This document shows, piece after piece, positions 1 through 8,113 of a stretch of 64,000 nucleotides of DNA. Positions within the stretch are counted from its first letter, which is position 1. Each line of letters starts with the position of its first letter. The DNA is from Planctomycetaceae bacterium (GTDB taxonomy: Bacteria; Planctomycetota; Planctomycetia; Pirellulales; Pirellulaceae): contig PAQH01000056.1 in assembly GCA_002709225.1 (NCBI GenBank), positions 1 to 64,000 of the forward strand, in the 5' to 3' direction. The notes beneath the pieces were generated by a model. It saw nothing but the letters and a program-made list of their open reading frames with translations. It had not been told where the DNA came from and made no database searches. The translations under genes and the position numbers were made by a program.

Positions 1-1169
1 CGAACATACTCGACCGTCAAATCACTTGTCCAGAAGCGGGCCGCAGCAGACCCTTCGGCAAAAGTCAATTCCACCATTGTTTCCCGTTGTTCACGCATCG
101 ACTGGCTGACAACTGCAGCATCGAATTCCACGGGAGCACCATTCTGAAACAAGCAAAAACCGTTCAACACCAAACCTAAGTTATCCCTGTCAAAGGGCAC
201 CCCGGCGTAGCCAACCGCCGAGACAATTCTGCCCCAATTGGGATCTGCACCGGCAATTCCTGTTTTGACCAGATTGCTGTGCGCAACCGTTTCTGCAATC
301 CGACGGGCATCGGCCTCAGTGGCACAACCGGAAACCTGGATGTTGATCAAGTGGCTGGCGCCTTCGCCATCGTCGGCAATCTGGCGTGCCAACTCAATGC
401 AAACCTCTTGCACAGCGCTGCCAAAGGAATTGAGGTCATCTCTTTCAAGCGGCGCGTCCATGGCCGCGCCACTTGCCAGCAACAATACCGTGTCATTGGT
501 ACTCATGTGCCCTTCAACGCTAATACAATTAAAGCTCGCGTCGGTGCAAGCTTGCAGCGTCGATTGCGCGGTCTCGGGAGTCAGCCTTGCATCGGTCGCA
601 ATGACGGCCAGCATCGTCGCCATCCGCGGCCCAATCATTCCCGCGCCTTTACACATACCTAGTATCCGAACTGTCTTCCCGTCCAACACAATTTCCCGCT
701 GCGCTGTCTTCGGACCTTTGTCCGTGGTAGTAATCCCTTCTGCCGCAGCCAACCAATCTACCTCCCCATTTCCGAGGCAGGACGCCGCAGAAGCAATGCC
801 ACTGGCAATCTGGCTCATTGGCAAATACTCACCAATGATACCTGTTGACATAACCAAGACCTGTTCCTGGTCGGCTTGAATTGCCTCCGCCGTGAGTCGG
901 GCCATCTCATGTGCATCAGACAATCCCTTGGGGCCGGTGCAAGCATTCGCATTTCCTGAATTAACAACGACTGCGCGCACATCCTGACTGGGGGTTCGGG
1001 CCCGATCCAGCTCTACCGGCGCTGCGTACATCAGGTTTTCCGTATAGACGCCTGCCGCCACGCTCGCTGGCGAGCAGGTCACCAATACCAAATCTCGTTT
1101 TTGTGGATCGGACTTGAGCCCGCAGTGAACCCCTGAAAACTGAAATCCAGCGGGAATACAAAAAGCCAT
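1..1169 (-). CDS. argJ: Bifunctional glutamate N-acetyltransferase / amino-acid N-acetyltransferase ArgJ (3' end cut by window)
   Basis: ArgJ moves the acetyl group from N-acetylornithine to glutamate in the cyclic arginine pathway and may also make N-acetylglutamate from acetyl-CoA. Reading the minus strand from an ATG at 1169 gives 389 codons without a stop, so only the last 10-20 residues of a roughly 400-residue protein are missing. Family marks are the N-terminal IPAGFQFSGVHCGLK, the VVVNSGNANACTG block near residue 70, and KGAGMIGPRMATM near residues 174-186. In that last block the Ala-Thr bond (Thr185) is the autoproteolysis site that creates the beta subunit and its nucleophile. DPNWGRIVSAVGYAG near the C-terminus is also typical. 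AGGTGA lies about 8 bases before the ATG. The moaB-like gene lies upstream on the same strand, about 150 bp away. Open frames on the opposite strand here are shadows. Confidence 0.96.
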   Translation of the reverse strand, partial: MAFCIPAGFQFSGVHCGLKSDPQKRDLVLVTCSPASVAAGVYTENLMYAAPVELDRARTPSQDVRAVVVNSGNANACTGPKGLSDAHEMARLTAEAIQADQEQVLVMSTGIIGEYLPMSQIASGIASAASCLGNGEVDWLAAAEGITTTDKGPKTAQREIVLDGKTVRILGMCKGAGMIGPRMATMLAVIATDARLTPETAQSTLQACTDASFNCISVEGHMSTNDTVLLLASGAAMDAPLERDDLNSFGSAVQEVCIELARQIADDGEGASHLINIQVSGCATEADARRIAETVAHSNLVKTGIAGADPNWGRIVSAVGYAGVPFDRDNLGLVLNGFCLFQNGAPVEFDAAVVSQSMREQRETMVELTFAEGSAAARFWTSDLTVEYV

Positions 1170-1323
1170 AAGTCACTTCACCTGACGAGAGCGGTTACGA
1201 TCCGAAGTACGAAATGCCGATTCTGGCTTTCACGGCCCTGACTTGCAAGCCGCCAATCCTGGCCACTCCAGGTGCTTCACTCGCTGGCACCGATCGTGAC
1301 AGCTGCAAAACAACATCGTGCCA

Positions 1324-1833
1324 TCAACGTCTCGCTTCCCGAACCAAGTGGGATAGTTCGGGCAAAATCACACGGTCCAGAGCGAGTGATACAGCGGCTC
1401 GAGAGCCAGGCATGGTCAGCAACAGAGTCCTCTTCATTAAACCTCCCGTCGCGCGGCTCAACATTGCAGCCGGTCCAATCTCCTGGTAGCTGAGCATACG
1501 AAACAACTCTCCGTAACCTGGTAATGAGCGTGTCAGCAGCTCAGACACGGTTTCAAAAGTCTGATCGCGTGCGCTGATTCCTGTCCCGCCGGTCAGCAAC
1601 ACACAATCGATGTCTGACTGGTCACGAAACTGCTCTAGTAAACAACGTAGTTGCTCAGGTTCGTCGGGAATGATGTCACGATAAACCACCTCATGACCCG
1701 CTGCAGACAGTCGATCCACAACCGTTTGACCACCTGTGTCCGTTTCCACAGTTCGGGTGTCGCTCAGTGTAATCACTGCACAGTGAACACTGTCAGGCGC
1801 ATCCGCCTTGTGTTGATCTGGTGTTGTAGCCAT
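1324..1833 (-). CDS. moaB: MoaB/MogA-family molybdenum cofactor protein
   Basis: The protein (169 aa) is of the MoaB/MogA type, which adenylylates molybdopterin before molybdenum insertion. The fold signature is clear: a first strand AVITLSDTR, then LLTGGTGIS near residues 80-88, which is the conserved TGGTG loop that binds molybdopterin, then GYGELFRMLSYQEIGPAAMLSRA and a C-terminal MPGSRAAV segment. The length fits the family (about 160-180 aa). No other molybdenum cofactor genes are adjacent, so the exact role (MoaB against MogA) cannot be fixed from context. argJ follows on the same strand about 155 bp downstream. Start at ATG 1833. Confidence 0.93.
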   Translation of the reverse strand: MATTPDQHKADAPDSVHCAVITLSDTRTVETDTGGQTVVDRLSAAGHEVVYRDIIPDEPEQLRCLLEQFRDQSDIDCVLLTGGTGISARDQTFETVSELLTRSLPGYGELFRMLSYQEIGPAAMLSRATGGLMKRTLLLTMPGSRAAVSLALDRVILPELSHLVREARR

Positions 1834-1896
1834 AGCAACCCATTAACGAAGACATACATTTAGTCGGTGCTACCACAATCGCAACCGCGCAAAAAA

Positions 1897-1919
1897 AAAG
1901 CGCCGCACAGCGGCGCTTT
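1897..1919 (-). terminator. Rho-independent terminator of the Gly/Met-repeat protein gene
   Basis: Perfect 10-bp inverted repeat, AAAGCGCCGC (1897-1906) and GCGGCGCTTT (1910-1919), with a 3-base loop. Read on the minus strand the stem is followed by a run of nine T. It lies 37 bases past the stop of the minus-strand gene at 1956-2885, the expected place for its terminator. Confidence 0.88.
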
Positions 1920-1955
1920 GGGTAATTCTACCGAGCTAATCAACTTCTGACGAGG

Positions 1956-2885
1956 TTACTGATTACTGAGCGACTCTAGTTTGGCCACATCATCACTGGC
2001 CAGGCTACTGCGTTGCGATTGCTGACCGCGACGTACTGCCTCGTTAGCAATTCGGATGGCATACCCGATCTCTCGGGGAGAAAAATACCTGCGAAAATAG
2101 CCGTTGCTCAGACGAATACGATCCTTGTTAGCCAGTTCCCACCAACTCAGTTTGTCGGTTAGATGCCAGGCAGCGGCTTGGGCCGAGTTACGGGGCACCT
2201 GACCGTTACCTACCATTTTACAAAGCTCGATAACATCCTGCTGCTTGGTGAAGCGTTCAATCGGAATCATTGTGTACTTCATACGAGGCGTTGGATCTTT
2301 CTTGCCTTCTTCCAGACAGAGCGTCTCTACTTTGATCTTGCGTTCGCGGGATGGTTCGAGATTGAACATACCACCGCCGCCACCACCCATGCCGCCACCA
2401 CCCATGCCGCCGCCACCCATGCCGCCGCCACCCATACCGCCGCCGCCCATGCCGCCACCGCCCATGCCGCCACCCATACCTTGACCGCCACCGCCACCGC
2501 CGCCCATGCCGCCGCCACCCATGCCGCCCATGCCACCGCCACCCATGCCGCCGCCACCCATGCCGCCGCCCATGCCGCCCATCTGAGCGAGCACAGCGGT
2601 GGGAACAGCTGCAAAAGCTTCCGGTAACTTGATGCTGATCGGTTTATCAGTCTTGTTCTTGATCTTCACCGTGGCCTGGCGGGCGTTCTTCGGTATGAAC
2701 TGGACTTCAATCTTGCCCGCATTGCGTCCCGCAAAAAAATCAACCACTTGAGCATGGACTTGCGGAGCCCTCTTGGATCGCGTGCTGCGACGCACTTTCG
2801 CAGCCGAGAGCAACGCAGGTGACAACACAAGCGCTGTCATTGCGGAAAGTGTGACCGCGCGGCGTGCAAAACCCATAGCCTTCAT
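1956..2885 (-). CDS. Exported protein with a glycine/methionine repeat tract
   Basis: A 309-residue protein that I do not recognise by function. Residues 1-28 form a Sec-type signal peptide (basic start, hydrophobic stretch, LLSAAK). Residues about 30-100 are basic, then a small beta-rich region follows. Residues about 101-172 are almost only Gly and Met, in units of GGGMG or GGGGM. The C-terminal third (about 175-309) looks like an ordered domain with LEEGKKDPTP, YTMIPIERF and a Trp-rich stretch (WHLTDKLSWWELANKDRIR). AGGAG sits 7 bases before the ATG at 2885. A terminator follows. Regularly spaced methionines could bind Cu(I) or serve as an oxidation sink, but this is inference. The C-terminal domain suggests a secreted structural or wall-associated protein. 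Confidence 0.8.
   Translation of the reverse strand: MKAMGFARRAVTLSAMTALVLSPALLSAAKVRRSTRSKRAPQVHAQVVDFFAGRNAGKIEVQFIPKNARQATVKIKNKTDKPISIKLPEAFAAVPTAVLAQMGGMGGGMGGGGMGGGGMGGMGGGGMGGGGGGGQGMGGGMGGGGMGGGGMGGGGMGGGGMGGGGMGGGGGGMFNLEPSRERKIKVETLCLEEGKKDPTPRMKYTMIPIERFTKQQDVIELCKMVGNGQVPRNSAQAAAWHLTDKLSWWELANKDRIRLSNGYFRRYFSPREIGYAIRIANEAVRRGQQSQRSSLASDDVAKLESLSNQ
2371..2583 (-). repeat. In-frame short tandem repeats coding for the Gly/Met tract
   Basis: Imperfect 12- and 15-bp units such as CCGCCGCCACCCATG (plus-strand sense) repeat across about 210 bp inside the gene at 1956-2885. Unit length stays a multiple of three, so changes in copy number keep the reading frame. It resembles a coding minisatellite, not a CRISPR array: there are no unique spacers. 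Confidence 0.9.
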
Positions 2886-3372
2886 TGGTATTCTCCTACC
2901 TGCTTCAAATATCCCAGACAGTCTAACCTAAGCTGTCTAGTCAGGTCACCCAGGCAAACAGGACGCCCGATTGATTCCCCGTGCCGTTAGGACGACCTGC
3001 AGCTGCGCAGCCCGTCAATCGGAGGTTACTCCTTAACTCTACAATACTAGACTGCGATTAGCATTCCAAGAAAAAAAATTGGGAAAGCCATTCGAGAAAA
3101 AAAGCAGTTCCCCTCAATCGGGGGAATTGGGGGGATGATCTCGACTACACGGACTGGGTTTTACCCGGCCAAACACACGCTCTACGCGGCCCGACCCCTA
3201 TGATCCGGACGATCTGTCTCGATTCTGCAAACGACGCCACCCCACCCGCCCCGACACGATGCCCGCTGGTGCTAAAATACTAGGATCGAAACACCCCTCG
3301 GCAAGAATCCTGGTGACAACACGAACTGCTTTGCATGTTTGTATCTGAGACCTGTATCTGGACCAAGAACCG
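2886..3372. other. Intergenic region between divergent genes, with inverted repeats
   Basis: 487 bases between the minus-strand Gly/Met-repeat gene and the plus-strand GTPase gene; it must carry both promoters. I see no gene. It holds a 6-bp inverted repeat (AGACAG 2916-2921, CTGTCT 2933-2938) in the likely leader of the Gly/Met gene, an 8-bp inverted repeat (CCGATTGA 2967-2974, TCAATCGG 3015-3022), A-rich runs near 3070-3105 and a short TTCCCC/GGGGAA hairpin near 3110-3127. Confidence 0.5.
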
Positions 3373-4938
3373 ATGACATTCCGCCGAGCTACTACCGGGT
3401 TAGGACTCCTGGCGCTGCTCGCGTTTTGTGGTTGGCTGTTGGTTACCATACCCCCCACACTAGTGTCACAATATCAAAAAGTGCAAGCAGCCAGTCATAC
3501 GGTACGCCTGGTTTACTTGGTCTCGGTGGGTGCCGGTGGGGTATTGTTGATCATCAGTATCTGTGGCTGCCTCTGGTTCGTCTGGAGTCGCACACGTCAA
3601 AAACACCAACAACAGCGGCAAGCCCAAGAAACCCCTGAAAATCTCAGCCCGCAACAGCGACAGCAGGAAATCGAACAAAATCTAGCACAGGTTCAGGACC
3701 TCAGCGGGGACCCTTCCGTTTCACCACCGCTGCAACGCGAACTGGATTCTCTAATCCACAATTTGGAAGCGAAACGAAAAAACCAGGAATTGCAGATTGC
3801 TGCATTTGGAACCGTATCGAGTGGCAAATCCTCTGTTCTCAATGCGCTTGCCGGCCGGGAGGTATTCGCCACTGACGCGCGCGGCGGCACAACGGTTCAT
3901 CGAAATCAGATTCCCTGGCCAGGCACCGACCGGTTGACACTGGTCGACACGCCCGGGATCGACGAAATCGACGGTGCCGAGCACGTACACATCGCCACGA
4001 CCGCAGCGGAGGATGCTGATTTGGTACTGCTGGTCGTCGATGGCGCGCTACGGTCATCCGAGTTCCAATTGCTCCAACGCCTGGAAGAGATGGAAAAAAA
4101 GATCCTGGTATGTCTCAATAAAGAGGATTGGTTCAGTGAGGACGACCGCAACTTGCTACTCAACCAAATTGGCCAACAGCTGAGTTCGCAGGTCGCGCGT
4201 GAAGACATCGTCGTCGTCCAAGCGAAAACTTCCCAGCGTGCTCGCACGAGACTAACCAGCGCCGGCCAGGAAGTCGAAGAATTCGTCGAGTTACCCGTTG
4301 ACATCGAGGACCTGGCCAGCCGCATGATGGAAGTCGTAGAGCAAGATGGTCGCGATCTGTTGCTGGCCAACTTGCTGTTGCAATCGCGAGGAATGGTAGA
4401 CCAGGCACGAGACCGGATCCGTCACGCCCTTGAAAACCGGGCGCGCAATACCGTCGACGGAGCGATGTGGGCGGCCGGAGGTGCAGCAGCTCTCAGCCCT
4501 TTGCCGTTAGTCGACCTGGCAGCCGGAAGTGCGATTGTAGTCAAGATGGTCATCGATCTGGCCCGTATCTTTCGCCAAGATATTGACGTCCAAACGGCTC
4601 TGAAACTGCTGGGAGAACTCGGCAAGAATCTCGTCGCCATCTTAGGGGTCAGCGCTGCGACACCTGCCGCCGCAAGCGCTGTGGCAACGATCTTGAAAAC
4701 GGTTCCCGGAGCAGGCACCCTCGCGGGTGGAATGCTGCAGGGTGTCGTCCAGGCGCTTGTAACGCGCTGGATCGGCATGGTCTTCATCGAATATTTTCAG
4801 AACGAAATGCAGCAACCTGCTCCTGACCTTGCTTCTCTCGCACGTCGTGAATGGCAGCGTCTGACGACAATCAATGAACTGCGCAAAGTAGTTCAATCAG
4901 CCCGCATGAAAATGCACACTCCTGACACCCCCGATTGA
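3373..4938 (+). CDS. Membrane-anchored GTPase with DUF697-type C-terminal domain (first of an overlapping pair)
   Basis: A 521-residue protein. Two hydrophobic segments (about 7-29 and 47-71) anchor the N-terminus, followed by a charged, coiled-coil-like linker rich in Gln and Glu (about 72-140). The Era/TRAFAC-type G domain follows: P-loop GTVSSGKS 146-153, switch-I GGTT 171-174, G3 DTPG 192-195 and G4 NKED 249-252. The C-terminal half (from about 365) has Ala/Gly-rich amphipathic helices (LSPLPLVDLAAGSAI and following) like DUF697, a helical membrane-associating domain found behind such GTPases. The next gene starts inside this stop codon and encodes a second GTPase of the same design, so the two are probably translated together and may form a heteromer. 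Substrate process unknown. No strong Shine-Dalgarno precedes ATG 3373. Confidence 0.85.
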   Translation: MTFRRATTGLGLLALLAFCGWLLVTIPPTLVSQYQKVQAASHTVRLVYLVSVGAGGVLLIISICGCLWFVWSRTRQKHQQQRQAQETPENLSPQQRQQEIEQNLAQVQDLSGDPSVSPPLQRELDSLIHNLEAKRKNQELQIAAFGTVSSGKSSVLNALAGREVFATDARGGTTVHRNQIPWPGTDRLTLVDTPGIDEIDGAEHVHIATTAAEDADLVLLVVDGALRSSEFQLLQRLEEMEKKILVCLNKEDWFSEDDRNLLLNQIGQQLSSQVAREDIVVVQAKTSQRARTRLTSAGQEVEEFVELPVDIEDLASRMMEVVEQDGRDLLLANLLLQSRGMVDQARDRIRHALENRARNTVDGAMWAAGGAAALSPLPLVDLAAGSAIVVKMVIDLARIFRQDIDVQTALKLLGELGKNLVAILGVSAATPAAASAVATILKTVPGAGTLAGGMLQGVVQALVTRWIGMVFIEYFQNEMQQPAPDLASLARREWQRLTTINELRKVVQSARMKMHTPDTPD

Positions 4939-6332
4939 CGACGGGTAACCGTCAACCTCTTCATACACTCCGCTCCCGACCAACGGATACTGTCATTGTG
5001 AACGATGCGCCGCTCTCCGCCGACGATCATTACAGCCAGGCAATGGCTTCCATCGAACGGACGATTGACAAACTCCGTCGCTGTTCTGACGCCGAACGAA
5101 AGCAGCTCAAGGGAGATCTTTCGCAGCTACAGGAAATGGTCAGCAAATTAACGAGTGGTCGAATCGAAATTGTCGTATTCGGTGAAATCAGCACAGGAAA
5201 GTCGGCATTGATTAATGCCCTGGTGGGAGAATCGGTCGTCGAAGTCGACGTACAAGGTGGCTGGACACGCGACATCTGGAAGATCCCCTGGGATGGAGCC
5301 GGTTATTGCCTACCCGGGCTGGCCGAGTCACAGGTCGTACTCATCGATACACCAGGCTTAAACGAGGTTGGTGGTGATCAAAGAACCGACCTGTCCATCA
5401 GTGCCGCGCGGCAGGCCGATCTGATTCTGTTCGTCACGGACTCGGACTTGAACGAAACTGAATATGTCGCGCTGAGCAATCTGGCGGGTACGCATAAACC
5501 AATCCTGGTGGTGCTGAACAAGATCGACCAATACTCCCCCGAACAACAATCGCGTCTCCTCGAAGTGCTGCGTTCCGAGCGACTTCTCGACCTGGTCCCG
5601 TCAGAACATCTTGTCGCAACCGCCGCAGATCCCCGGGAACGTGAATATATTATCGAATCGGAACATGGCGCCCGTCGTAGTGAGTGGCGCAAACCGGAAC
5701 CACAAATCGAGGACCTCAAGGTCTCCATTCTCTCGGTACTTGAGAAAGACGGGCTGGCTTTGTTGGCTTTGAATGCGGCACTCTACGCCGCCGACAAATC
5801 GGATCGCATCGCTTCCCTACGAGTCCGCTTGCGACTCAAACAGGCCAATCAGACGATTCTTAGTTTCGCAACCATCAAATCCATAGCTGTTGCCACTAAT
5901 CGGATCCCGGTACTCGATACTGTGGGCGGGCTGGCTGTAGACATCACCATGGTCGTCACACTCGCCCACATCTATGGGCTGGAACTCTCCTGGATGCACG
6001 CACGTCAATTGGTGCGCTCAATCGGTAAAGCAGCAGGATTTGCAATGCTCGCGGAAACCGGCACACACCTGGCCAGCTGGGCCTTTACGATACTCACCGC
6101 GGGTGTCGGCGCGGTACTCACGGCAGTCCCACAAGGAGCCGCCGCTGGCTATGGTTCCTTTATCGTTGGGCAGGCTGCCAAGTATTATTTTGAACACGGC
6201 GCATCCTGGGGGGGCGAATCACCCAAAGTCGTAATTCGCCGTATTCTCGAAGAGACCGATAAACAGTCGATACTGAACCAGATGAAGGAAGAGATTCACA
6301 AGAAACTCACGTGGAACCGGCACGCTCCCTGA
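4935..6332 (+). CDS. GTPase with DUF697-type C-terminal domain (second of the pair)
   Basis: A 465-residue paralogue-like partner of the preceding GTPase but without N-terminal membrane segments. A helical region (about 30-75) precedes the G domain: P-loop GEISTGKS 83-90, G3 DTPG 138-141, G4 NKID 195-198. The C-terminal region contains IPVLDTVGGLAVDITMV and two hydrophobic stretches, matching the DUF697-like part of its neighbour. The chosen start is TTG 4935, giving a TTGA overlap of four bases with the upstream stop. GTG 4998 or ATG 5043 are alternatives that would shorten only a low-complexity N-terminus. No clear Shine-Dalgarno lies before any of them, which favours translational coupling. 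A gamma-glutamylcyclotransferase-like gene follows 32 bases later. Confidence 0.83.
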   Translation: MTTGNRQPLHTLRSRPTDTVIVNDAPLSADDHYSQAMASIERTIDKLRRCSDAERKQLKGDLSQLQEMVSKLTSGRIEIVVFGEISTGKSALINALVGESVVEVDVQGGWTRDIWKIPWDGAGYCLPGLAESQVVLIDTPGLNEVGGDQRTDLSISAARQADLILFVTDSDLNETEYVALSNLAGTHKPILVVLNKIDQYSPEQQSRLLEVLRSERLLDLVPSEHLVATAADPREREYIIESEHGARRSEWRKPEPQIEDLKVSILSVLEKDGLALLALNAALYAADKSDRIASLRVRLRLKQANQTILSFATIKSIAVATNRIPVLDTVGGLAVDITMVVTLAHIYGLELSWMHARQLVRSIGKAAGFAMLAETGTHLASWAFTILTAGVGAVLTAVPQGAAAGYGSFIVGQAAKYYFEHGASWGGESPKVVIRRILEETDKQSILNQMKEEIHKKLTWNRHAP

Positions 6333-6364
6333 CCGGACCAGAGAAGCTCCAACAAGGCCTGCCC

Positions 6365-6823
6365 ATGGCAATCTCAAACCGCGTTGGCAACGTCAGTTCT
6401 TCACCCGAGGGGGTGTTTGTCTACGGCACACTGCAACAAGGCGAACAGCGCGAGCAGAATTGGCCGCGAACTCCACGTTCGCGTCAGTGTGCCACAGTTC
6501 GCGGGACCTTGTTTGACCTGGGAGCCTATCCAGCGCTGCTGCCTGGCAAGGACCTCATCGGCGGCGAGTTCTGGGAAATCGCGGCTGCCGATATGCCAGT
6601 CACACTCCAGGTGCTGGACGGCATCGAAGGTTACAACCAAGGCCACGAGAATCTCTACGAAAGACGGGTCATCTTCTGTCGACTGGAAACCGGGATCACA
6701 GTGTCCGCCTACACTTATTTTTGGGCCCAAGCTAACGCAACCCACTTGCTGGAAAAAATGACCGCGGGGCCAGATGGTGTTCATCTGTGGAGACGTGGCC
6801 CCGGGAGTCATCCCACCCCGTAA
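6365..6823 (+). CDS. Gamma-glutamylcyclotransferase (AIG2/YtfP-like) family protein
   Basis: The protein (152 aa from ATG 6365) has the GGCT/AIG2 fold signature: FVYGTLQQGEQRE at the start of the domain, a central ALLPGKDLIGGEFWEI that carries the conserved glycine and likely catalytic glutamate, and LDGIEGY before a Tyr-rich end. Family members release 5-oxoproline from gamma-glutamyl amines or peptides; the substrate here is unknown. AAGG lies about 8 bases before ATG 6365; an in-frame GTG at 6311 would overlap the upstream GTPase by 22 bases and add residues with no domain value. The tight spacing suggests co-transcription with the GTPase pair. Confidence 0.85.
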   Translation: MAISNRVGNVSSSPEGVFVYGTLQQGEQREQNWPRTPRSRQCATVRGTLFDLGAYPALLPGKDLIGGEFWEIAAADMPVTLQVLDGIEGYNQGHENLYERRVIFCRLETGITVSAYTYFWAQANATHLLEKMTAGPDGVHLWRRGPGSHPTP

Positions 6824-7066
6824 TGCGAATCACGAGCCGGAGCCCGCAATGGGTCGTGGCATTACTCGCGGCATTGCTCACGATGAACAGCGTGCCCGGG
6901 CATCTCTACCAGCCTCTCCTGTAGATTCCACTTCTTTTTCTTGCCAAAATGGATGGGGCGTTGGGTAACCACAGGTTGCCGCGCGCGTCACCATCTGTGC
7001 TGCAAGTCGCAAGGTCTTCTGGTCCCCGGCTACTTCCAACCCAAACCCGAGCAAGGACACACGGTC

Positions 7067-8113
7067 ATGAGCTATCGACTCTCTCTACTATTGCTGGCCC
7101 TCAGTGGCCTGATTGTTCAACCACTGGCCGCTGGGGAGGCTGACGGGCACCTCGATATTTACTGGGTCGATGTTGAGGGCGGTGGTGGCACGTTGATTGT
7201 CACACCCCAGAACGAGTCGATACTGATCGATACCGGAAACCCAGGTGTGCGCGATCCCGGCAGAATCTCGCAAGCTGTCACCAAGGTTGCCGGCCTGAAA
7301 CAAATCGATCACGTCATCGTCACTCACTATCATCGCGATCATTACGGTGGTGCCGAAGCCCTTTCAAGAATGCTCCCGATCGGATCCCTGTATGACAATG
7401 GCAAGTTTGAAGGAATGCCGGATAACCCCGGTAAAGCCTACTTCGAACTCGAATGCGAAAAGAGAGTCGTCATTCACCCCGGATACCTTGTCCCACTCAA
7501 GTCCAACAGCCCCACCAAACCGGCAGTGAAGCTGCAATGCCTGGCAACGCGCAAAACATTCATTAAACCGGAAGCTGTTAATGCCCAACGCAACAACGGC
7601 GCAGAGAAGTTGCACCGACCCAAAGAACGCGATGGATCCGACAACGCCAACAGTGTTGTCATGCTACTACAGTTTGGCCCATTTCGATTTCTGGACGCTG
7701 GTGACCTGACCTGGAATCAGGAAAAACGACTGGTCCATCCTTTCAACCTGGCGGGCGAAGTCGATGTCTACCAAGTCACGCACCACGGGCTGGACAGTAG
7801 TAACAACCCCATCCTACTACAGTCAGTAAAACCGCGCGTGGCCGTCATGAACAACGGCGTTACCAAAGGCTGTGCGCCCGAAGTGTTCGCGAACCTGCAA
7901 GCAGTACCGTCAATACAGGCCATTTACCAGCTCCACAAGAACTTGCGGCCGGACGGAAAAACAAACAACACCAAGAACGAATTCATTGCCAACTCAGAGC
8001 GAGAATGCAACGGACACTACATCAAGTTATCCGTGGCCCCCGACGGCTCCACTTATACGGTCAGTATTCCCGCACATGGTCATCAGCGCACCTATCAAAC
8101 CAGAGGCAAGTGA
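7067..8113 (+). CDS. Secreted metallo-beta-lactamase-fold hydrolase (ComEC/Rec2 C-terminal-like)
   Basis: A 348-residue protein starting at ATG 7067, preceded at 9 bases by AAGGA. Residues 1-24 form a signal peptide ending near PLAAGEA. The mature part begins LDIYWVDVEGGGGTLIV, followed by ILIDTG and the zinc motif HYHRDH, then FLDAGDLTWNQE and VTHHGLDSSNNP near residue 240, in the order of beta-lactamase-fold hydrolases. The arrangement is closest to the stand-alone relatives of the ComEC/Rec2 C-terminal domain. Substrate unknown. A DUF1501 gene follows after 34 bases, so the two exported proteins may be co-expressed. A longer in-frame reading from 6941 was rejected because it would bury the signal peptide. 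Confidence 0.87.
   Translation: MSYRLSLLLLALSGLIVQPLAAGEADGHLDIYWVDVEGGGGTLIVTPQNESILIDTGNPGVRDPGRISQAVTKVAGLKQIDHVIVTHYHRDHYGGAEALSRMLPIGSLYDNGKFEGMPDNPGKAYFELECEKRVVIHPGYLVPLKSNSPTKPAVKLQCLATRKTFIKPEAVNAQRNNGAEKLHRPKERDGSDNANSVVMLLQFGPFRFLDAGDLTWNQEKRLVHPFNLAGEVDVYQVTHHGLDSSNNPILLQSVKPRVAVMNNGVTKGCAPEVFANLQAVPSIQAIYQLHKNLRPDGKTNNTKNEFIANSERECNGHYIKLSVAPDGSTYTVSIPAHGHQRTYQTRGK

Follow-up and report, generated by a model that had tools for sequence, protein, structure and literature searches.

Here, we report on two adjoining genes, A and B, that lie at positions 3,373 to 6,332 of a 64,000-nucleotide (nt) stretch of contig PAQH01000056.1 from a Planctomycetaceae bacterium (the whole stretch hereafter being the window), and that each encode a GTPase domain followed by a DUF697 domain. 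Because A and B strictly co-occur and are largely adjacent, a joint function for the two appears well supported, and the explanation that we tentatively favor is that they form a hetero-oligomeric membrane GTPase pair, which would act like a small paired bacterial dynamin. Direct contact between A and B seems likely, and membrane remodeling by the pair is put forward as a reasoned guess. The features concerned, numbered by window position (aa, amino acids), are these:

3373..4938, plus strand: gene A, a membrane-anchored GTPase with a DUF697 domain, 521 aa (from the list of open reading frames and Pfam)
3394..3450, plus strand: first N-terminal hydrophobic segment of A, residues 8-26 (Kyte-Doolittle 2.14 over 19 residues)
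3508..3564, plus strand: second N-terminal hydrophobic segment of A, residues 46-64 (Kyte-Doolittle 2.41)
3808..3831, plus strand: P-loop of A, GTVSSGKS, residues 146-153 (pattern kept in 68/68 A rows)
4378..4857, plus strand: DUF697 domain of A (PF05128, 4.3e-26)
4935..4938, plus strand: TTGA, reported as an overlap and probably not used as a start (not conserved in congeners)
4939..4997, plus strand: probable gap of 59 nt between A and B (congener gaps being 60 nt in G001 and C39, and 66 nt in G002)
4998..6332, plus strand: gene B, a GTPase with a DUF697 domain and lacking an N-terminal membrane segment, 444 aa from GTG 4998 (Pfam, congener comparison, and structure model)
5181..5204, plus strand: P-loop of B, GEISTGKS, residues 62-69 (GEISTGKS in 68/71 rows, GEIDTGKS in 3/71)
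5709..5897, plus strand: 63-residue helix of B after the G domain, model residues 238-300 (structure model)
5784..6260, plus strand: DUF697 domain of B (PF05128, 1.6e-28)

An initial annotation, made from the window alone, had described two GTPases with the same domain order and intact G motifs, and on both counts it was right. A and B are collinear and homologous throughout the length that they share (29% identity over 384 aa, with 398 columns in a profile-profile alignment), and in each the DUF697 domain lies C-terminal of a GTPase domain that Pfam assigns to MMR_HSR1 (8.9e-18 for A and 3.9e-16 for B). The G1, G3, and G4 motifs are intact in the window copies and are likewise kept in the two families, where G1 follows GxxSxGKS in 68/68 A rows and reads GEISTGKS or GEIDTGKS in 71/71 B rows, and where simple patterns recover DTPG (G3) in 67/68 A and 71/71 B rows and NKxD (G4) in 68/68 A and 67/71 B rows. 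In a FastTree phylogeny of 67 A and 67 B proteins with midpoint rooting, all A sequences are split from all B sequences (support 1.0 and 0.74), and the duplication would therefore predate the sampled lineages; judged by sequence, A and B are anciently diverged sister GTPases. A mirror-tree correlation between A and B (r 0.80) was left unused as evidence, since shared species history accounts for it.

Among the findings that tie A to B is their joint inheritance. Among the window genome and 59 relatives (60 genomes, searched at E values up to 1e-15), A and B are present in the same 29 and neither is present in the other 31, with the carriers comprising 24 of the 37 genomes of the same family and 5 of the 23 from the order's other families. 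In a sample of 244 planctomycete genomes from across the phylum (profile threshold 1e-40), the A and B profiles match the same 10 genomes and no other. As some genomes belong to both sets and carriage of the pair tracks ancestry, these counts are not independent events. No case of A without B, or of B without A, was found in either the 60-genome or the 244-genome search. Conservation across Planctomycetota, which the initial annotation had proposed to check, holds in that the two genes mostly stay together where present, but the pair is not phylum-wide (10/244). The DUF697 domain itself occurs in 40 of these 244 genomes, so that DUF697 proteins of other kinds, encoded singly, are present in further members of the phylum. 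A search of plasmid records with A found nothing at 1e-10. Cultured bacteria in which the pair occurs include Blastopirellula marina DSM 3645, Lacipirellula limnantheis, Bythopirellula polymerisocia, and Aeoliella straminimaris.

For gene order, we used the best 80 of 391 candidate B relatives from a genome collection, the records of which are titled planctomycetes or planctomycete genera, with one titled just 'bacterium' (L084). In 73 of these 80 loci, the gene immediately upstream of B, in the same orientation, is A, and separation of the genes in most relatives, which the initial annotation had named as the outcome that would speak against it, is thus not what we observed. Four of the other seven loci (L086, L124, L129, and L150) begin no more than 304 nt from the end of a contig and were kept in the denominator. 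A scan of open reading frames of at least 90 aa with ATG or GTG starts, from which overlapping frames were dropped, gave no conserved third neighbor in the 80 loci (the next family, upstream of A, reaches 18/80), and the unit therefore consists of A and B alone. In a genome of another class (G194, L177), A is followed by B after a gap of 2 nt, and in a distant family (G286, L176) an amidase-like gene stands between A and the downstream B, all on the same strand (L176:2557-7313). We take this middle gene to be amidase-like from its sequence; its start is overlapped by the end of A by four bases. In both L176 and L177, N-terminal hydrophobic segments were seen by eye in A and not in B. These sequences support the conclusion that an anchored and an unanchored GTPase are kept as a unit in the Pirellulales and, outside their class, in one genome of those sampled.

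The asymmetry in anchoring, namely that only the first GTPase has two N-terminal membrane segments, had been noted from the window and is confirmed across the two families, with two hydrophobic segments before the P-loop in 60 of 68 A relatives and none in B (0/71). The start of A (ATG 3373) and its full length are common to the congeners, in one of which helices 4-37 and 42-84 are predicted for the regions of the first and second segments, respectively. Read from the sequence, an Arg/Lys-rich stretch lies just after the second segment and basic residues are found at the extreme N-terminus as well, and so, by the positive-inside rule, the double segment of A would form a hairpin, its two ends both being cytoplasmic. 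The description of B as soluble is correct insofar as an N-terminal anchor is missing, but its DUF697 part, like that of A, has hydrophobic stretches, and B therefore need not be strictly soluble.

The junction between the two genes called for a comparison of congeners, one of which is represented in the window assembly (G000) itself. There, a second syntenic copy of window 1-7146 is found on another contig (C39:98000-107619, L012), which is 81% identical to the window and, across 4,685 nt, shares 98.0% identity with a contig from a different species of the genus (G001). Given these identities, a lineage-specific duplication within the genome was rejected as the source of the second pair; most likely, C39 is a co-binned contig, and the bin appears to mix two species. 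At 98% identity, G001 and C39 effectively count as one species. In both, A stops with TAA and the first possible start of B is a GTG 60 nt downstream, while in G002 the 66 nt between A and B contain an in-frame stop. The GTG at window 4998 is conserved in all congener copies examined (G001, C39, and G002), and no Shine-Dalgarno-like sequence was obvious by eye upstream of either TTG 4935 or GTG 4998. On the strength of this conservation, B most likely starts at GTG 4998 and so has 444 aa, not 465.

The TTGA letters reported as a four-base overlap are indeed present at 4935-4938, but they are probably not a gene feature, and with the congener gaps and the kept GTG we discarded the overlap as evidence for coupling. 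Consequently, neither the coupled translation that the initial annotation had read from the overlap, which is absent from the congener copies examined, nor the production of A and B at a fixed ratio is supported. As regards co-expression, the evidence at the window itself fails, but the idea appears right for the lineage. In fact, in other genera an ATG or GTG lies at exactly -4 in 25 of the 73 adjacent A-B pairs, against about 8.4/73 expected from the observed stop codons, last bases, and a random phase (binomial tail 3e-7, uncorrected for relatedness). With the starts as chosen, the A-B gaps span -11 to 896 nt and measure 70 nt or less in 62/73, and in L105, L111, L141, and L080 the two genes lie about 560-900 nt apart on the same strand. 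In the genome of L080, A has one in-frame stop (G305:C1131:15915-17453), which decay of the pair or a contig error may explain.

To the gene-order evidence we add the predicted structures. The AlphaFold2 model of B (71 sequences; mean predicted local distance difference test score (pLDDT) 81.1, predicted template modeling score (pTM) 0.65) has helices at residues 7-27 and 38-53, the G domain, the 63-residue helix (238-300), and further helices up to the C-terminus, between which residues 352-361 are modeled with low confidence. The same layout is seen for A in a fusion model, with helices 93-111 and 118-137, the G domain, and helix 312-374, and neck-type helices before and after the G domain are thereby present in the predicted models of both proteins (93-137 and 312-374 in A). 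A Foldseek search with B placed mitofusin 2 at the top (3.7e-8) and mitofusin 1 next (below 1e-6), after which came the Campylobacter dynamin-like proteins (DLPs) Cj-DLP1/2 (5owv, 3.2e-7), LeoA, the bacterial dynamin-like protein BDLP, IIGP1 (an IRG GTPase), Fzo1, and IniA; the bacterial dynamin entries 4aur and 6j72 had E values of 6.3e-7 and 5.5e-6. By VIA, in which Z differences under 1 were treated as ties, B superposes on Fzo1 with Z 19.3 (249 residues, 4.9 Å) and on mitofusin 1 with Z 18.6 (254 residues, 6.1 Å), both alignments covering both sides of the G domain, and A superposes on mitofusin 1 with Z 18.5 (240 residues, 6.1 Å). Moreover, the Dynamin_N profile scores 49 bits for A and 52.6 bits for B (cut-off 27), with MMR_HSR1 scoring higher in both. 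Taken from the models, the G domain looks Era-like and the arrangement around it dynamin-like, with a loose fit outside the G domain. The phrase 'dynamin-like or Era-like' in the initial annotation was accordingly a fair guess, since the predicted fold places a dynamin-like architecture around an Era-like G domain; on these models, the pair is not a proven member of the dynamin family.

In the mechanism that we tentatively favor, A would be held in the cytoplasmic membrane by its N-terminal helical hairpin, with its GTPase presumably on the cytoplasmic side, and B, lacking such an anchor, would be recruited via A. The G domains of A and B would then touch in a GTP-dependent manner, and a further contact probably runs along the long DUF697 helices. 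This contact may shift the helical parts through a GTP-driven movement, and the hydrophobic stretches in these parts may make a second contact with the membrane. As a result, the pair would tether, bend, or reorganize membrane as paired bacterial dynamin-like proteins do. A more specific version, which we consider unlikely, is that A and B are a hitherto undescribed, minimal dynamin-like machine of heteromeric type. Its engine would be Era-like, DUF697 would serve as its compact stalk and membrane paddle, and it would tether or remodel the internal membranes of Pirellulales. If true, DUF697 would gain a function and the pair would be an intermediate between Era-type GTPases and mitofusin-type dynamins.

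Several observations weigh against a dynamin-like pair. By sequence, EngA and Era models outscore dynamin models, both as profiles and among PDB sequences, and the best G-domain superposition of B by VIA is with Era (Z 20.1, 162 residues, 2.3 Å, G domain only). The Foldseek whole-model template modeling scores are 0.26-0.36 with large root-mean-square deviations (rmsd), and matches that extend beyond the G domain have an rmsd of 5-6 Å or more and barely cover the helical part. At 521 and 444 aa, A and B are small next to the roughly 560-700 residues of solved bacterial dynamins, although size by itself is no defining trait of the family. The read-through A-B fusion model, in which A of the sister species was joined to B through the stop codon read as a residue and 20 codons (10 paired and 32 A-only rows), has a pLDDT of 78.2 and a pTM of 0.55 and comes without an error matrix, so that it does not demonstrate A-B contact. 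Finally, the genes are unlinked in some genomes: about 7 kb upstream of B lacks A in L099, L118, and L119 (A is found elsewhere in the genome for two of these three, both that were searched), the two genes are separated in G021 and G059, both of them single-contig genomes, and A of G047 sits inside a 92-kb contig where B does not adjoin it. With regard to the obligate heteromers to which the initial annotation had likened the pair, the two genes are strictly co-inherited, but 'obligate' is too strong a word for their order, given these separations.

The main rival is that A and B cooperate as regulatory GTPases of the TrmE-Era-EngA type, as a membrane-bound switch and its partner that would control a transporter, membrane-protein assembly, or another client and would not reshape membrane. 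This we consider somewhat doubtful, although the EngA/Era matches just described, which are the best both by sequence and for the G domain, speak for it. So does the NCBIfam model slr1306_fam (NF049994), which A matches over nearly its whole length (197.3 bits, 3.6e-58) and to which A is nearer by score than B (134.7 bits); a link of A to this cyanobacterial family would fit regulation. A 2008 paper by Zhang et al., cited in PMC5472144, reportedly names slr1306 in its title as a putative part of CO2 concentration. However, both proteins stay far below the slr1306_fam cut-off of 490 bits, and A also misses the equivalog cut-offs for EngA (66 of 306.7 bits) and Era (55.5 of 237 bits). Furthermore, Pfam returned no KH or other recognized RNA-binding domain in A or B, and Era is without the long helical part and the N-terminal helices.

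It is improbable that A and B are instead non-touching GTPases with separate jobs that have shared an operon since a tandem duplication. Paralogs in the same order would be expected under this explanation, and it could accommodate the genes lying apart in G021, G059, G047, and three of the 80 loci in which the upstream sequence is complete. Were the link no more than a relic of descent, however, genomes with one gene alone would be expected, and none were found despite loss or absence in 31/60 and 234/244 genomes. Even where the linkage is broken, A has been retained: a whole-genome search of nine genomes behind loci without an adjacent A found it in eight, and in the ninth (G303) B is cut by a contig end. 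Least probable is that A and B are a planctomycete form of the enterobacterial envelope-stress pair YcjX/YcjF, in which the gene for YcjF, a DUF697 protein, neighbors a GTPase-like gene, for although DUF697 was found in the E. coli control genome, neither A nor B has a DUF463 (YcjX) match in Pfam at E values up to 0.01, and each carries both domains.

DUF697 is without an assigned function and is rarely mentioned in the literature searched, and the pair makes a clean test system by reason of its strict co-inheritance, its fixed asymmetry between an anchored and an unanchored partner, and its cultured carriers. Should the pair remodel membrane, it would be a compact new paired bacterial dynamin in a phylum with poorly explained internal membranes; should it not, the pair would still name a partner and a likely site of action for the widespread DUF697.

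Elsewhere in the window, an AIG2-like gamma-glutamylcyclotransferase gene (6311-6823) is situated directly downstream of B; its longest open reading frame overlaps the end of B, and its true start is probably further in. Upstream, 1956-2885 encodes a glycine/methionine-rich repeat protein with a signal-like N-terminus and no Pfam match, within which 2376-2570 holds about 13.6 copies of a 15-bp unit. This protein is found in the congener as well, there with a different number of repeats.

Compared with known systems, YcjX/YcjF is also a two-gene unit with a GTPase and DUF697, but in it the domains are split between the proteins, whereas A and B each carry both and no DUF463. Era and EngA have a like G domain (for Era, Z 20.1 with 162 residues superposed at 2.3 Å) and are the best PDB sequence matches, but A and B lack the KH domain or second G domain and have a long helical DUF697 part and a membrane anchor. 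The slr1306 family resembles A almost over its full length, though A and B both fall well short of its 490-bit cut-off. Mitofusin and Fzo1 give the top Foldseek hit for B and VIA Z scores of 18-19 over about 250 residues of B, and of 18.5 over 240 of A, but at only about 15-20% identity; moreover, the membrane segments of mitofusin are C-terminal, whereas those of A are N-terminal.

The closest parallel may lie in the paired bacterial DLPs (Cj-DLP1/Cj-DLP2, LeoA, IniA/IniC, and the tandem A/B BDLPs of cyanobacteria), in which, as with A and B, two GTPase genes stand side by side and, as in our models, helices flank the G domain together with a helical bundle. One source describes bacterial DLPs as usually encoded in operon pairs, and the Campylobacter pair as a 2:2 heterotetramer in which assembly sets off both GTPase activity and the binding of lipid (PMC6104087). 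Two others describe the cyanobacterial BDLPs as tandem A/B (PMC5827413), and IniA as having a neck and trunk, with the G domain preceded by two helices and the trunk ending in a loop that interacts with lipid (PMC6715688). In the literature searched, judged without full texts, we found no published description of an A/B DUF697 pair. A and B differ from the paired DLPs in being smaller, in having a G domain nearest to Era and DUF697 as the helical part, in superposing loosely outside the G domain, and in being anchored through one partner alone, by a double membrane segment at its N-terminus. Paired dynamin-like GTPases are thus already known, and it is the DUF697 A/B pair that appears new.

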